DNA from: a virus
DNA: 41,701 nucleotides
Strand: one strand, 5' to 3'
Virus record (IMG/VR): IMGVR_UViG_3300046787_000379
Location: 1-41,701 of that record
The position numbers were made by a program, and so were the translations under genes. Within the stretch, counting starts at the first letter, position 1. Each line of letters opens with the position of its first letter. The notes below the pieces were generated by a model. The model was not told the origin of the DNA. It made no database searches and was given only the letters and a program-made list of their open reading frames with translations. Below are positions 3,745 through 30,972 of this stretch, piece after piece.

Positions 3745-4170
3745 ATGGAAAGCAAAAAAAAGATTGAAAAGAAAACCTACAAATTTGCAGAGCTAGAATT
3801 AGTCTCAAAATTGATGGCGTCTTGCAAGAATGACAAAGGCTTAAAAAGTTCTGCTACGACATTAAATGCTATCAGAATTGTAAGAAAAGTGGCTGATATC
3901 TCCAAGAAATTCTACGAGGAACAAAAGGAGATTTTTGAAAAGTTAGGAGTAAAAGTAAAAGAAACTGAGCAAGGTCAAATTTACGATTGGAGCACAGAAG
4001 ATGAAAAATTTAAAGCAAAAGTTGATTCAGCATTGCAAGAATTAAACAAAACTGACCACGAGTTTAGCGAGTTTAATCAAATGTCAGAAAGCGAATTTGT
4101 TATTTATACACAAGGTCTCGATACGGATGCAGTTGTATTCTTGTACGGGTATTTAGTTAAAGCATCATAA
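3745..4170 (+). CDS. Hypothetical charged protein
   Basis: A 141-residue, lysine- and glutamate-rich protein that I do not recognise. It is predicted mostly helical, has no membrane segment and no cysteine cluster beyond one Cys near residue 27. The start ATG follows an A-rich stretch, as for most genes here. It opens the group that continues with the membrane genes at 4182-5164, so it may be a small structural or lysis-accessory protein, but nothing in the sequence decides this. Confidence 0.6.
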   Translation: MESKKKIEKKTYKFAELELVSKLMASCKNDKGLKSSATTLNAIRIVRKVADISKKFYEEQKEIFEKLGVKVKETEQGQIYDWSTEDEKFKAKVDSALQELNKTDHEFSEFNQMSESEFVIYTQGLDTDAVVFLYGYLVKAS

Positions 4171-5164: not shown

Positions 5165-5186
5165 AAATAGACATTTTTCAATTTTG

Positions 5187-8294: not shown

Positions 8295-8589
8295 AATAAT
8301 TGATGTTGTAGCAAGGCATTATGGCACTACCTCAGAAGCCGTTTTGTCTCGGTCTAGGAGCTTCAATGATGGCGTAATACCCGCAAGGCTTATGTGCGTA
8401 TTATTGCTCCGCAAAATCAATTTAAAGTATGAGCAAATAGGTTTTATATTAAACCGAAAGCACCATACGTGTTTGCATGCAATACGCCAGCAAGAAGATT
8501 ACATAAGCGTTTACCGAAATTTGAAAATTGAATATGAGAATTTTTTAAAGATTTTACGTATTGATGTGCAGTTAAATTTGCTAAAATAA
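8254..8589 (+). CDS. DnaA domain IV-like DNA-binding protein
   Basis: A 111-residue protein resembling the isolated C-terminal DNA-binding domain of DnaA: VARHYGTTSEAVLSRSRS (about 19-36), PARLMCVLLLRK (43-54), a helix-turn-helix at EQIGFILNRKHHTCLHAIRQ (60-79), where RKHHTCLHA matches the DnaA signature. It lacks the ATPase domain, so it is not an initiator on its own; it may bind DnaA boxes to redirect or block host initiation, or help phage origin recognition. It lies just before the initiator-like gene at 8721. Its last codons overlap the early promoter at 8577. Confidence 0.75.
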   Translation: MKTISQKQLLRSLEIIDVVARHYGTTSEAVLSRSRSFNDGVIPARLMCVLLLRKINLKYEQIGFILNRKHHTCLHAIRQQEDYISVYRNLKIEYENFLKILRIDVQLNLLK

Positions 8590-8608
8590 AATTTTGTTTG
8601 CATATTTG
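8577..8608 (+). promoter_or_regulatory. Early promoter with palindromic spacer
   Basis: TTTG 8577-8580, 20 bp, CATATTTG 8601-8608 (7 of 8). The spacer starts with CTAAAATAAAATTTTG, a diverged copy of the shared palindrome. Transcription would begin near 8615 and meet the terminator at 8681-8718 after about 100 bases. Confidence 0.75.
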
Positions 8609-8614
8609 CGTTAC

Positions 8615-8718
8615 AATAAATCGAACTGATAAATGTAGGAGTTTATAAGTTCGTTTTTCATAGGTTTACCCAAAACCTCCAAGCCCGTTCGTCTCCTACC
8701 GTTCGGGCTTATTTTTTT
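8615..8718 (+). ncRNA. Terminator-ended leader RNA or small RNA
   Basis: Between the promoter at 8577 and the ATG at 8721 there is no open frame but dense pairing: CGAACT 8622-8627 with AGTTCG 8648-8653; hairpin AGGTTT/AAACCT 8662-8678; terminator stem AAGCCCG 8681-8687 with CGGGCTT 8704-8710 and seven T (8712-8718). GTAGGAG 8635-8641 is the exact complement of CTCCTAC 8693-8699 in the terminator loop, so a second fold or pseudoknot is possible. Either this is an attenuator controlling the next operon or a stand-alone RNA of about 104 nt; the start is estimated from the -7 box. Confidence 0.65.
8681..8718 (+). terminator. Intrinsic terminator directly before the 8721 start codon
   Basis: AAGCCCG, 16-base loop holding CTCCTAC, CGGGCTT, then A and seven T. 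It ends 2 bases before the annotated ATG. Confidence 0.85.
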
Positions 8719-8720
8719 CC

Positions 8721-9524
8721 ATGAAAGAACTAGAACAATCAGTTGGAATGATACAGATAGCAAGTCGTATGTATCCGACGCAGGTCAAAACAGAAATTTT
8801 ACGTGACCCTAATTTGAGTATGCAGGCAAAGGGGTTGTATGCGTATCTTGAAACCCATTCTAAGTCATTTAAGATTTATAAGTCAGAATTACAAAATCAT
8901 TTTTCAAACGGAAAAGATGCGGTGCGTAACGCATTTGATGAATTAGTTCAGGCTGGTTACGTGCATTCTATTCGCGTCGTTGAGAATGGAAAATTTAAAG
9001 GTTGGAATCATATTTTGCATGACACACCTTGTGAAAATTTTGATGAAGAAATTTACCCGAATGCGGATTTACCGTTAGCGGAAAAACCGATGGCGGAAAA
9101 CCCGACAACGGAAAACCCGCCACTAAGGTTAATCAATAATAAGGTTAATCAATTAAAGGTAAAAGAAAAATATAAAAAAGGTTTTGACGAATTAAAATTG
9201 ATACTAGATTCGGTAACTGGAGAACGCGCTGAAACTATTAAAAAATGGTACGCCTATAAAATCGAACGCAAAGACAAGGTAACAGCATCTATGGTAAAAA
9301 CATGGTTTAAGAAATTCAGCCATCTATCAAACATAGAATTTGAAACCGCAGTCGACCATTCAATCAGCAGTGGTTGGTCTGGGATATTCCCCCCAAAACA
9401 CCTAATGGCAAAAGCACAAACAACGGCAGACAATTCAGAGCGAATTAAGGCCGAATTTGAAAAGCAGGAAAAAATCAAACAAATAGCACAATCACAAAAT
9501 GAACGAAAAAATAAGCATTTTTAA
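8721..9524 (+). CDS. Helix-turn-helix replication initiator-like protein
   Basis: A 267-residue protein. Residues about 15-85 form a winged-helix domain: a pattern around ILRDPNLSMQAKGLYAYLE, then NHFSNGKDAVRNAFDELVQAGYV, as in phage replication initiator/DnaD-O-like proteins. A charged linker (about 100-150) is followed by a helical domain. It directly precedes the primase-helicase and overlaps it by 26 bases, the usual O-P-like order, so origin binding and helicase loading are likely roles. ATG 8721 lies 2 bases after a terminator T-run; ATG 8748 (MIQIASRMYP) is a possible alternative start. Confidence 0.75.
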   Translation: MKELEQSVGMIQIASRMYPTQVKTEILRDPNLSMQAKGLYAYLETHSKSFKIYKSELQNHFSNGKDAVRNAFDELVQAGYVHSIRVVENGKFKGWNHILHDTPCENFDEEIYPNADLPLAEKPMAENPTTENPPLRLINNKVNQLKVKEKYKKGFDELKLILDSVTGERAETIKKWYAYKIERKDKVTASMVKTWFKKFSHLSNIEFETAVDHSISSGWSGIFPPKHLMAKAQTTADNSERIKAEFEKQEKIKQIAQSQNERKNKHF

Positions 9525-11313
9525 GTCGCTCACTAATATCAACGAGCCACACCAGATTACACTTGAATCTGCGCTGAAAAGAATCGAAAATGGTAGTTCG
9601 CGTTTGCAGGTAGAATATATTCGTGGGCTATACGAATCCAATGAAAATTCATTAAAGATTCAAGAAGCCAAGAAGCTATTACCGTGCATTACGTTTTCTG
9701 GCACGTTCTCTAAGCGTAGCGACAATTTCTTGATAGCTCATAGTGGATTCATTGTTCTTGACTTCGATAAGGTCTTAAACGCAAAGGAATACAAAGCAAT
9801 CATTTCTGAAAACCCTTTTATTTATGCGTGTTGGATAAGCCCAACTGGGAACGGAGTGAAGGGATTGATTCGTATTTCGGACCCAACAAAGCATAAGGAG
9901 CATTTTGAATCCATATTGGATATGTTTCCTGAACTGGATAAATCAGGTGGTAATCTTTCTAGGGTATGTTTTGAATCATTTGACCCTGATATTTATATCA
10001 ATGAGCAGGCAAAGGTATTTGATATTATCAAGTCTCATAATATTAACGAAATACGTATTCAAAATAAACTGTCTGATAATGATATTTTTGCTAAGCTGAT
10101 TGTATGGAAAGATAAGCGCGAACAATTTGTAGACGGAAACAGAAATCGTTACATTTTTACTTTGGCTGGCGCTTGTTGTCGTTACGGTATGACAAAAGAT
10201 ATGTGTGAGGCAGAGGTGCGCAATTACTTTTCATTTTCAGATTCATTTGGAGAAAAAGAGGCAATCACCGCGGTGCGTTCGGCGTATAAAGCTAATCAGC
10301 ATTTATTCGGCTCCGCAGAATTTACAAAGGAAAATAATCTAGTAAACACTTCAACCAGGTCAGAAGTAGTCATAGAAGTTGAAACAAGAATTGTAGATAA
10401 TGAAGAACGCATTTCAGATATCATCTATCTGAATGATATTTCAACTGATTTATTTGATATTTACCAAAATGGATACCCATCATTACTAGGGGTAAATACC
10501 CCATTGCTAGATAAGCATTATAAGCCTTTAAGAGGAGATACAACTGTAATTACTGGCTACGCAAACTACGGTAAATCTACTTTTTTGATGTGGTACTTGG
10601 TTATGCGCGCCCTGCTTTACGATGAAAGTTTTGCGTTGTATTCACCTGAATCAGGGGCAAAACGTTTTTACCTTGGAATTAAAAATATGATTTTAGGTAA
10701 ATTGGTAGCTTATAGTGGTTCGTATGCTGAATCAGACGCTAGATATATTAGTCCGGACTCTATCCGTGGCGCTGATGAATGGATACGTGACCACTTTTAT
10801 TTTGTGCACCCTAAAGAAGCCAGTCCTACTCCAGAGTATTTAGAAAGTGTATTTTTGAAGTCAGTCGTATTGCACAAGATTTCAGGTATTGTGATTGACC
10901 CGTTTAACCAAATGGACAACAATTACCAGAAAGCAGGTGGACGTGATTTGTATGTGAGTCAGGTGATGTCATCACTCAATCGTTTTGCGCAAAATAATAA
11001 CATCTTTTGCTTTATAGTTGCTCACCCAAGGACACCATCGAATCGCGGTGATAATCAGAATTTCCCTATGCCTGATGCACATAGTATAGCCGATGGGTCA
11101 ATGTATGTAAATAAAGCGCACCACGTTTTAATTTTTCATCGACCTGATAGAGAAACGCATCCTGACCTAGATACCTGCCAGTTGCGTATTGCAAAAATTA
11201 AGGACATGCCTACGCAGGGTAAACTTGGAACTATTGATTTTAATTATACCAATTTCCGTTTCTTCTTCAATGAAAGTGACCCATTGCAAGAAGCTATAGA
11301 TTCAATACTATAA
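9499..11313 (+). CDS. Primase-helicase (BT4734/VirE-N-like plus DnaB-like)
   Basis: A 604-residue fusion. The N-terminal ~190 residues match the BT4734-like/VirE-N domain typical of Bacteroidota elements (CITFSGTFSKRS, GFIVLDFDK, CWISPTGNGVKGLIRI), a primase-polymerase relative. A helical linker follows, then a RecA-fold helicase: Walker A GYANYGKST at 353-361, Walker B IVIDP with Asp at about 467, and the DnaB-like VAHPR and KIKDMPTQG motifs near 510 and 570. It should unwind and prime phage DNA. It overlaps both neighbours, and is translated with the initiator-like gene. Confidence 0.88.
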   Translation: MNEKISIFKSLTNINEPHQITLESALKRIENGSSRLQVEYIRGLYESNENSLKIQEAKKLLPCITFSGTFSKRSDNFLIAHSGFIVLDFDKVLNAKEYKAIISENPFIYACWISPTGNGVKGLIRISDPTKHKEHFESILDMFPELDKSGGNLSRVCFESFDPDIYINEQAKVFDIIKSHNINEIRIQNKLSDNDIFAKLIVWKDKREQFVDGNRNRYIFTLAGACCRYGMTKDMCEAEVRNYFSFSDSFGEKEAITAVRSAYKANQHLFGSAEFTKENNLVNTSTRSEVVIEVETRIVDNEERISDIIYLNDISTDLFDIYQNGYPSLLGVNTPLLDKHYKPLRGDTTVITGYANYGKSTFLMWYLVMRALLYDESFALYSPESGAKRFYLGIKNMILGKLVAYSGSYAESDARYISPDSIRGADEWIRDHFYFVHPKEASPTPEYLESVFLKSVVLHKISGIVIDPFNQMDNNYQKAGGRDLYVSQVMSSLNRFAQNNNIFCFIVAHPRTPSNRGDNQNFPMPDAHSIADGSMYVNKAHHVLIFHRPDRETHPDLDTCQLRIAKIKDMPTQGKLGTIDFNYTNFRFFFNESDPLQEAIDSIL

Positions 11314-17050: not shown

Positions 17051-17187
17051 CCGTACCAAATGTAATAATAGAAGTGTTGGCAAGGTTACATCTGTGGTTG
17101 CCAAACCCATACGCTACGGGTCGAATAGGGTTAAGAAATAACTCTAGAAAGCGTAAAAAATAGCGACTGCTGGAAAGAAAGCAAAAA
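17051..17187 (+). other. Non-coding stretch with strong potential RNA structure
   Basis: Between two tRNA elements. TTGGCAA (17077-17083) pairs with TTGCCAA (17098-17104); AACCC (17104-17108) with GGGTT (17128-17132); TACGCT (17110-17115) with AGCGTA (17150-17155). There is no open frame. It is probably part of a tRNA precursor or a separate small RNA; no known family is recognised. Confidence 0.4.
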
Positions 17188-17257
17188 GCGGGCTAATGTA
17201 ATGGTTAGCATAACAGACTTTGAAGCTGTTCGTATGGGTTCGAATCCCTTGCCCGCA
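17188..17257 (+). tRNA. tRNA-Gln (anticodon TTG)
   Basis: Acceptor GCGGGC pairs with GCCCGC (17251-17256). The D-arm has TAATGGTTAGCA, the anticodon arm ACAGA-CTTTGAA-GCTGT gives anticodon TTG with one mismatch at the loop base, and the T-arm contains GGGTTCGAATCCC. D-loop and anticodon loop match tRNA-Gln of Bacteroidota as I know them. CCA is not encoded. The seventh acceptor pair is T-T, so it is slightly short or degenerate. Confidence 0.8.
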
Positions 17258-17277
17258 ACTAAACAAATACAATCAAT

Positions 17278-17755: not shown

Positions 17756-17826
17756 GGTCGGTTGCTAGAGTGGTTATAGGCTAGTCTGCAAAACTAGAGA
17801 CAACGGTTCAAATCCGTTACCGACCT
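17756..17826 (+). tRNA. tRNA-Cys (anticodon GCA)
   Basis: Acceptor GGTCGGT (17756-17762) pairs with ACCGACC (17819-17825); D-arm TTGCTAGAGTGGTTATAGGC; anticodon arm CTAGT-CTGCAAA-ACTAG with anticodon GCA; T-arm AACGG-TTCAAAT-CCGTT. All stems are intact and CCA is not encoded. A Cys tRNA fits the unusually cysteine-rich virion proteins of this phage. Confidence 0.95.
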
Positions 17827-17847
17827 CAAACATTAATACAAAACGTG

Positions 17848-29269: not shown

Positions 29270-30262
29270 ATGACAAACGAGCAAGAATTAAAAGTTGAAG
29301 CGATTAGGAAACACTTCAATTCAACAAATATGAGAATCAGTGATTTTTGGACTGAATTCTACGAATCATACGGTTACAATAATAGAACTGGGTTAAAGAA
29401 ACTTTGCATAGTAAATAACATTACTGTTAGGGAAAGAGCTAAATTAAGAAGCATAAGTAATGGCGTAAAGACTGAGTTCGGTCTTGATGAATTAGATGAT
29501 TTTGGTATAGCGCCTAGTATTGGAAAAGAATATACTAGTTTGCAACTACCAAGCGAATTAAAGCGCATTGGAATCCTATCTGACATTCATTTTCCTTATC
29601 ATAGCGTAGAAGCATTACGGACTGCGATTAAGTATTTGCGTGAACAAGAAATCGATTGCCTTTATCTGAACGGTGATATCTTCGATTTTTACAGCATCAG
29701 TCGTCACGAGAAAGACCCTGATATGCGCGATTTTCCGAGAGAGGTTGAGATGAATAAAGAGTTTGTTCAGAAGCTACGCAATCTGTTCCCTACAATACCA
29801 ATTTATTACAAGCTAGGAAATCATGAGAATCGTTACGCAAAATCATTGCAAGTAAACGCAGAGGAATTTGCTCAGATACACGAGCTTCAATTCGATATAT
29901 TCTTTGGTTTTGATAGATTGGATTTCAGGATAGTAAACGATTGGCAGGGAATGGAGATGGTTGATTTGCTGGTGCTTCACGGCCACGAGCTTTATGGTGG
30001 TGGCGGTGTGAACCCTAGCCAAAACTTATTCAACAAGACCATCTGCAATACGCTTATTGGACACGTTCATCGGACTTCAAACACTACCAAAAAGACTGGA
30101 TTCAAGAAATTTATCCATACTTATTCTACGGGATGCCTTACGGTTTTAAGCCCAAAATATATGCCATTCTCACAGCACAATCATGGATTTGCTTTGGTAG
30201 AAATAGAAAATGGGATTTCTAAGGTTAAGAACTTGGTAATCAAGGATGGTAAGGTATTGTAG
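29270..30262 (+). CDS. Calcineurin-like metallophosphoesterase
   Basis: A 330-residue protein. The N-terminal ~90 residues are a helical, HTH-like region (IRKHFNSTNMRISDFW...). The C-terminal domain has the complete metallophosphoesterase set: SDIHFP (Asp105, His107), NGDIFD (Asp136), GNHENR (Asn184, His185), LHGHE (His237, His239), GHVHR (His265, His267). It could cut nucleotides, cyclic nucleotides or DNA ends. It stands between tail genes, directly before the probable tail tube gene, so either it is a packaged enzyme or an insertion (moron-like) sharing the late transcript. No own promoter is visible. Confidence 0.9.
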   Translation: MTNEQELKVEAIRKHFNSTNMRISDFWTEFYESYGYNNRTGLKKLCIVNNITVRERAKLRSISNGVKTEFGLDELDDFGIAPSIGKEYTSLQLPSELKRIGILSDIHFPYHSVEALRTAIKYLREQEIDCLYLNGDIFDFYSISRHEKDPDMRDFPREVEMNKEFVQKLRNLFPTIPIYYKLGNHENRYAKSLQVNAEEFAQIHELQFDIFFGFDRLDFRIVNDWQGMEMVDLLVLHGHELYGGGGVNPSQNLFNKTICNTLIGHVHRTSNTTKKTGFKKFIHTYSTGCLTVLSPKYMPFSQHNHGFALVEIENGISKVKNLVIKDGKVL

Positions 30263-30281
30263 TTTTGTCGATAAGCACATA

Positions 30282-30311
30282 TTTGTAGTTAAAAAAATAG
30301 CCATATATTTG
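30282..30311 (+). promoter_or_regulatory. Late-type promoter without palindrome (tail tube)
   Basis: TTTG 30282-30285, 18 bp, TATATTTG 30304-30311, a perfect TAnnTTTG box. The spacer (TAGTTAAAAAAATAGCCA) lacks the CTAAATT palindrome. The leader is about 45 bases, with TACATAGCGGTACT at 30317-30330. Confidence 0.75.
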
Positions 30312-30363
30312 TATTGTACATAGCGGTACTGATGGCAATTTTCAACTTTTAAACAGAAAAAAA

Positions 30364-30972
30364 ATGCCGATTAATTATTCAAATTTCGTGGATTGTGCTG
30401 GCGATACTTGCGTTAAGGTAACGTTGCCAGTTAAGTCATCTCAGGCGTGCGATTGCACTACTTGGGGAGGTCGTATTAACGACTTGTATTTCATCGATTG
30501 TTCAGAAGAAGTTTCTGCTGAAAATTTAATCGATACCGCTTGGTGGACTGCATTAAAAGCTGATGACAAGATTTTCAACTTAGGTGTTGGAATCGGTGGT
30601 TATGCTAAGAAAAATGCAATCACTTTTGACGCGGGTGGATGTGGAGTTCCTACAATTCAGGACATCGAATGGGCTTTAACATATCAGGTATTCTGTATGG
30701 ATAAGTCTTCTGCTATGTACACTCACGAGTTTGCGAACGACTTAATCAATGGTGGTTTAAAGAACTACAACGTGATTGCTCGTTTCTGCGATGGAGACAA
30801 CATGATTTTACCAATTGGTAAGGTATCGTTATCAGATTTCAACAATGAGTTGCCAACTGATATTACTGGCTTTATGTCGTTCTCTTATGAGTTCTCTTGG
30901 AAATCAATGGTAGTTCCGACTCCATTAGAGGTTGCAGGCTTACAAGCAGTATTGCCAAAAGCAACAAGATAG
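30364..30972 (+). CDS. Probable major tail (tube) protein
   Basis: A 202-residue protein with 8 Cys (VDCAGDTC, ACDC, IDC, GGC, VFC, RFC). It is called as tail tube from several signs: its own perfect promoter, its own terminator, an apparent bias to a small set of codons such as those in highly expressed genes, beta-rich content, and normal tube-protein length. There is no sequence family I can name. It lies upstream of the portal, separate from the chaperone and tape measure genes by 8 kb, which is not the common order. An alternative is a capsid decoration protein. Confidence 0.6.
   Translation: MPINYSNFVDCAGDTCVKVTLPVKSSQACDCTTWGGRINDLYFIDCSEEVSAENLIDTAWWTALKADDKIFNLGVGIGGYAKKNAITFDAGGCGVPTIQDIEWALTYQVFCMDKSSAMYTHEFANDLINGGLKNYNVIARFCDGDNMILPIGKVSLSDFNNELPTDITGFMSFSYEFSWKSMVVPTPLEVAGLQAVLPKATR

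Follow-up and report, generated by a model that had tools for sequence, protein, structure and literature searches.

Plasmids of the pT181 and pIP501/Inc18 types carry a terminator directly before the replication-initiator gene and employ loop-loop pairing and a separate antisense RNA made from the opposite strand. In the ColE1 system, which acts on primer formation, two RNAs (RNA I and RNA II) meet through fully complementary kissing loops of 7 nt. RNA hairpins ahead of the homing-endonuclease genes of phage T4 hide the ribosome-binding site, and the c4 RNA of phages P1 and P7 is an immunity RNA of the same kind as the CI RNA of phage P4. The P4 CI RNA causes premature transcription termination before the P4 replication genes (PMC4825925). 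The element described here shares features with each of these systems and, as far as its sequence allows a judgement, is a putative and apparently undescribed switch for starting phage DNA replication, to which we refer as the kissing-terminator RNA.

The element was found in a 41.7-kb virus record (IMG/VR IMGVR_UViG_3300046787_000379), the whole of which (41,701 nt) was analysed and is called the window. It contains a typical phage gene set, encoding RecT, SSB, a DnaA-C-domain protein, a DnaD-like Rep protein, primase/helicase, terminase, tape measure protein and endolysin, together with two tRNA genes, for Gln (TTG, 17187–17259) and Cys (GCA, 17756–17827). The unit sits between the DnaA-C gene, which ends at 8589, and rep (8721–9524, plus strand), the gene of a replication-initiation or DnaD-like helix-turn-helix protein (PHROG 678, 186, 428, 270). 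Behind the predicted RNA, rep is the first gene of an operon and a DNA primase/helicase gene (9499–11313, plus strand) the second.

A leader or small RNA of about 106 nt is predicted at 8613–8718 on the plus strand, its ends being deduced from the promoter and the intrinsic terminator. Hairpin 1 (8622–8653) has outer arms CGAACT (8622–8627) and AGTTCG (8648–8653) and a further ATAAA/TTTAT pairing, and presents loop L1, GTAGGAG (8635–8641). The fold then gives hairpin 2 (AGGTTT/AAACCT, 8662–8678), which is confined to the subtype of the window, and the terminator hairpin (8681–8710) with arms AAGCCCG (8681–8687) and CGGGCTT (8704–8710) and an inner CG/CG pairing. The terminator loop L2, CTCCTAC (8693–8699), is complementary to L1. 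Seven T's (8712–8718) follow, then CC and the ATG of rep at 8721, so that the T-run is also the immediate upstream region of the start codon; relatives are arranged alike. The predicted RNA has a folding energy of −28.5 kcal/mol, against −15.2 ± 2.7 for shuffled versions (z −4.98; 0 of 200 shuffles as stable), and z ranged from −4.6 to −5.0 across computations. The initial annotation, made from the sequence alone, had already pointed to the complementarity of GTAGGAG and CTCCTAC, which is exact over 7 nt, and to the CGAACT/AGTTCG pairing around L1; both are correct to the coordinate. Its description of a structured sequence ending in a terminator, with the T-run 2 nt before the ATG, is borne out by the fold (z about −5).

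The same annotation placed a palindromic promoter at the start of the unit, and this too agrees with what was found: a promoter of the Bacteroidota type at 8577–8608 on the plus strand, recognised by its match to the consensus and overlapping the 3′ end of the DnaA-C gene. Its −33 element is TTTG (8577–8580), followed 20 nt further on by the −7 element CATATTTG (8601–8608), which matches five of the six near-invariant positions of TAnnTTTG. The −7 element is defined by T-12, A-11, T-8, T-7, T-6 and G-5 (PMC6847099), and the spacing reported in that work puts the predicted transcription start at about 8613. The promoter includes the imperfect palindrome GCTAAAATAAAATTTTGT and is one of seven to eight similar palindromic promoters in this phage (0.1 in shuffled sequence). 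About seven copies of the palindromic block TTTGCTAAATTAAAATTTAG(C/T) occur on the plus strand, at 5183, 5551, 8577, 11549, 15626, 37890 and 38515; several are followed by a TATATTTG-like −7 element, and the blocks are repeated in the close relative G001 as well. The palindrome looks like an operator common to the operons of the phage.

Comparison with the described systems shows partial likeness in each case. Like P4 CI RNA, the unit would give a short RNA from the leader of a replication operon that is complementary to its own leader and tied to termination (PMC4825925), which in the present case is a predicted event. Its position and terminator fit control by termination as in P4 and P1. 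The P4 CI RNA, however, arises by processing of the leader and has its pairing partners in trans, seqA and seqC, on both of its sides. The present RNA ends in a terminator and contains a single loop pair, of which the terminator itself supplies one partner; inspection of the sequence gave L2 as the only complementary site, against two leader sites in the P4/P1 type. Furthermore, whereas the P4/P1 type belongs to temperate phages, carriers of the unit include lillamy, mumin and morran, from a group described as lytic (PMC7077304). The single complementary partner, the terminator's part in the pairing and the description of the lillamy and mumin carriers as lytic thus indicate that the unit is not a member of the P4 CI family. 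With the attenuators of pT181 and Inc18 it shares the terminator directly before a replication-initiator gene and the loop-loop pairing; it differs from them in having both loops in one transcript. No antisense promoter was noticed, and inspection of the opposite strand near 8720–8800 gave no element of the TAnnTTTG type. Fully complementary loops of 7 nt are also a property of ColE1 RNA I and RNA II, but there the terminator is not a partner. Some units stand before HNH endonuclease genes, and these are reminiscent of the T4 hairpins in that a structured element precedes such a gene and, by analogy, may hold it back; the kissing terminator with its own promoter is nevertheless a different device, and HNH genes are the minority among the genes behind it.

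Searches of Rfam 15 at gathering and relaxed thresholds gave no family match, in agreement with the initial annotation, which had matched the RNA to no known family; the best weak hit was suhB, with 20.4 bits against a cut-off of 41. Nothing like the kissing-terminator RNA was described in the open-access papers searched, plasmids gave no match to the RNA of the window, and a genome scan produced two matches outside the Bacteroidota, approximately the number expected by chance.

A search of viral contigs with DNA patterns built on the RNA of the window yielded a single close relative (G001, locus L002), with 91% amino acid identity in the primase and about 80% nucleotide identity over the genome. 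Its RNA is identical to that of the window over 70 nt, including both arms of hairpin 2, the terminator and L2, and its hairpin-1 arms differ from those of the window yet still pair around the same GTAGGAG. Since longer identical runs occur elsewhere in this genome pair, the 70-nt identity is supportive only. One such run, of 139 nt (30248–30386 in the window), is present although the two genomes average 80% identity; its intergenic part, 30263–30363, is possibly a conserved non-coding element, judging from this identity.

More distant relatives were reached through proteins. An alignment of the primase brought in 80 loci, among which L049 has the same layout, with loops GTAGAGC/GCTCTAC, ahead of a different rep gene, and L090 has it with loops GTAGAGG/CCTCTAC; near most of these 80 primase relatives no unit was found in the stretches examined. 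A search with the Rep proteins of L049 and L090, in which the RNA was left out of the query, yielded 11 loci, and all of those with upstream DNA carry the unit directly before the rep ATG. Their loop pairs are GGACTAGC/GCTAGTCC, TAAGAGCAAC/GTTGCTCTTA, GGTAGGAG/CTCCTACC (twice), GGGTCACAG/CTGTGACCC and GTAGAGG/CCTCTAC, and in one locus TGGAAC/GTTCCA plus one added G-U position. The unit is present before the replication-initiation operons of about a dozen metagenomic phages. Inverted matches were also seen within the rep gene of L098 (4354–4435) and L102 (4353–4435), which are possibly origin repeats.

Cultured phages carry the unit as well. A scan for the architecture matched Flavobacterium phage lillamy9-5, and BLAST widened this to 46 Flavobacterium records, with compensatory loop variants in lillamy (GTGAGAC/GTCTCAC), morran (GTGAGAA/TTCTCAC) and mumin (GTGGAAC/GTTCCAC). 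Units also precede the replication operons of Tenacibaculum phage JQ, Flavobacterium phage elemoE, Cellulophaga phage phi19:1 and F. columnare phage FCOV-F54. The place predicted from these was inspected in three relatives, FCOV-S2, Nekkels_1 and elemoA, and all three have a unit there, with other loops. In Cellulophaga phage Nekkels_1 (L193, about 353–550) the terminator is branched, and the pair ATTGGAA/TTCCAAT is accompanied by an apparent second one, GTCTAAC/GTTAGAC. A terminator is also present at the corresponding place in Maribacter phage Panino, but with loops that lack complementarity. The distribution of the unit is widespread but patchy, and its absence near most primase relatives, together with the non-complementary loops of Panino, indicates that it is dispensable for some phages.

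Altogether 25 units were compiled, which follow the order promoter, hairpin, spacer of 40–84 nt, terminator hairpin with complementary loop, T-run and start codon. The TAnnTTTG element matches at six of six positions in 16 of 19 units examined, and L1 begins 4–24 nt after the predicted start. Pairing between L1 and L2 spans 6–10 nt, with 6 bp in G033, and ends at or near the loop edges; the distance between the loops is 40–69 nt in 24 units and 84 nt in that of Nekkels_1. Behind 22 units comes a replication-initiation gene, in some cases with a short ORF in between, and the products include PHROG 428, 186, 270, 678, 11233 and others, with DUF6291 in lillamy and G033. The other three units precede genes for HNH endonucleases, two of them NUMOD4. 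These are the two units of L130 (431–518 and 2014–2106) and one in G013 (L131, minus strand, about 1093–1178 of the reverse complement), all directly before the endonuclease gene. Most units have the start codon immediately after the T-run; this holds for the metagenomic group, and in the others the start codon comes within about 50 nt. Approximately half of the cultured phages have their first annotated start codon 30–50 nt past the T-run.

The 25 units contain 20 distinct loop pairs, of which 19 are fully paired, with 139 of 140 positions paired. Fourteen units were located only through flanking proteins or DNA, and among these all 12 distinct pairs are fully complementary; with shuffled partners the average is 1.1 and the highest count 7, values that are themselves inflated by related loops. 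Two alignments, one of a metagenomic subgroup and one of the lillamy group, gave numbers of pairs and cells and a covariation score above those of at least 499 of 500 shuffles, and the real pairing exceeded all slid versions. The initial annotation had made its proposal depend on conservation of the paired bases in relatives; what is kept there is the complementarity, through compensatory changes, while the letters differ. On the strength of these sequence comparisons we hold it as nearly certain that the L1–L2 pairing is real, and the covariation is equally compatible with intramolecular and intermolecular kissing. An ordinary terminator with a chance complement could be suspected, as a terminator or a 7-nt complement is by itself a common find; such an explanation has practically no probability. 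In 3.6 Mb (both strands) the architecture scan returned 33 T-run entries, as compared to 3 after local shuffling; for the cultured set the counts were 22 and, in shuffled sequence, 0. The 12 out of 12 fully paired cases in homology-located units exclude chance complementarity. One weak scan match each in L170 and L122 was discarded as looking like chance.

A further property emerged from phages that are nearly identical. In L094 and L095, identity is 97% in the upstream 120 nt, 50% in the RNA and 99% in the first 200 nt of rep; for L099 and L103 the values are 89%, 44% and 93%, with a shuffled baseline of 25–28%. Each version of the RNA in these two pairs has its own complementary loop pair. 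The exchanged stretch comprises only the RNA of about 120 nt, between the promoter and the rep start codon (about 3860–4000). Genome G007 has three units, with three different loop pairs. In three cultured pairs (elemoE/elemoA, phi19:1/Nekkels_1 and FCOV-F54/S2) the downstream gene was replaced along with the RNA, which fits module exchange.

How such an RNA would act can be judged from position and geometry. The initial annotation had left the choice between an attenuator of the replication operon and a stand-alone small RNA of the copy-number or kissing type; the kissing pairing stands, through covariation, and the position before replication-initiation genes in 22 of 25 units and the narrow loop spacing favour the attenuator. 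A leader acting in cis is preferred because its position before the operon start is consistent, a promoter lies directly ahead and the L1–L2 spacing is narrow; the 40–69 nt in 24 of 25 units fits the expectation for pairing inside one molecule. We therefore consider it probable, though by no means assured, that the unit acts in cis as an attenuating leader, with its terminator locked by a kissing loop, and so limits or times the replication operon. Transcription would start at about 8613 and hairpin 1 would fold first, after which L1 would capture L2 as it emerges, giving a compact kissing complex locked on the intrinsic terminator. Most transcripts would then stop at about 8718 as a stable RNA of approximately 106 nt; in mRNA produced by read-through, only about 10 nt would separate the locked hairpin from the AUG, which may hinder ribosomes, so that expression of rep and primase would be limited or timed in cis. 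Structure near the start codon reduces translation in Flavobacterium (PMC6847099), but translational blocking cannot be general, due to the start codons located 30–50 nt past the T-run in about half of the cultured phages. Promoter, leader and terminator ahead of rep are the parts of an intrinsic-terminator attenuator. Hairpin 1 could form an antiterminator with the 3′ arm of the terminator in the window, G001 and L094 but not in most others. Neither a conserved antiterminator fold nor a ligand site could be identified among the relatives, which counts against the attenuator in that its 'on' state goes unexplained. In another reading, the kissing loops would scaffold a binding site in a riboswitch-like leader sensing a ligand or protein; one subgroup does have a conserved hairpin with a GAAA cap and an internal loop, AGTA/GAA, that resembles the loop E motif. 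These motifs are absent from the subtype of the window and from other groups, no sequence is conserved family-wide and no Rfam riboswitch matched, which makes this proposal very improbable.

A purely cis-acting lock also leaves the different RNAs in near-identical phages unexplained. The exchange of the whole RNA with promoter and rep in common suggests a self-specific function, for example replication control in trans. Terminated RNAs would build up with genome copies and pair loop to loop with nascent leaders of the same phage, altering termination before rep; such a leader-derived, self-complementary RNA would be an analogue of P4 CI RNA or of the copy-number RNAs of plasmids, and co-infecting phages would stay independent through the specificity of their loops. 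The swapped RNAs of L094/L095 and L099/L103, each with its own pair behind a retained promoter and before a retained rep, agree with this, as do the three different pairs in G007 and an operon of rep and primase/helicase as in P4. Yet intramolecular pairing should out-compete pairing in trans at the narrow L1–L2 spacing, lysogenic immunity is not the general role in view of the lytic lillamy/mumin group (PMC7077304), and in the three further cultured pairs the downstream gene changed together with the RNA. Control in trans is thus conceivable and rather doubtful. With the same reserve, a hypervariable self-recognising RNA could exert private control of replication and act as a cassette-exchanged determinant of incompatibility or superinfection specificity in dsDNA phages of Bacteroidota. 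Less likely still, and improbable in our view, is an independent small RNA that targets some other RNA, of phage or host, and lies before rep by coincidence. The compact layout with its own promoter and terminator would suit such a role, and so would the 70 nt kept identical between the window and G001 in genomes of 80% average identity; however, the loops vary from phage to phage, with matching changes only in the partner loop, the location ahead of replication operons and beside the start codon is conserved, and identical runs of similar length occur elsewhere in the same genome pair.

If the cis-acting leader attenuator is indeed what these phages carry, the capture of a terminator loop by a hairpin further upstream would add a new means of tuning termination. 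Little is known about replication timing in Bacteroidota phages, and since the RNA precedes replication operons in cultured phages of Flavobacterium, Cellulophaga and Tenacibaculum, the proposals are testable now in laboratory strains. The exchange of whole RNAs between phages that keep promoter and rep points to co-infecting phages competing at the level of RNA.
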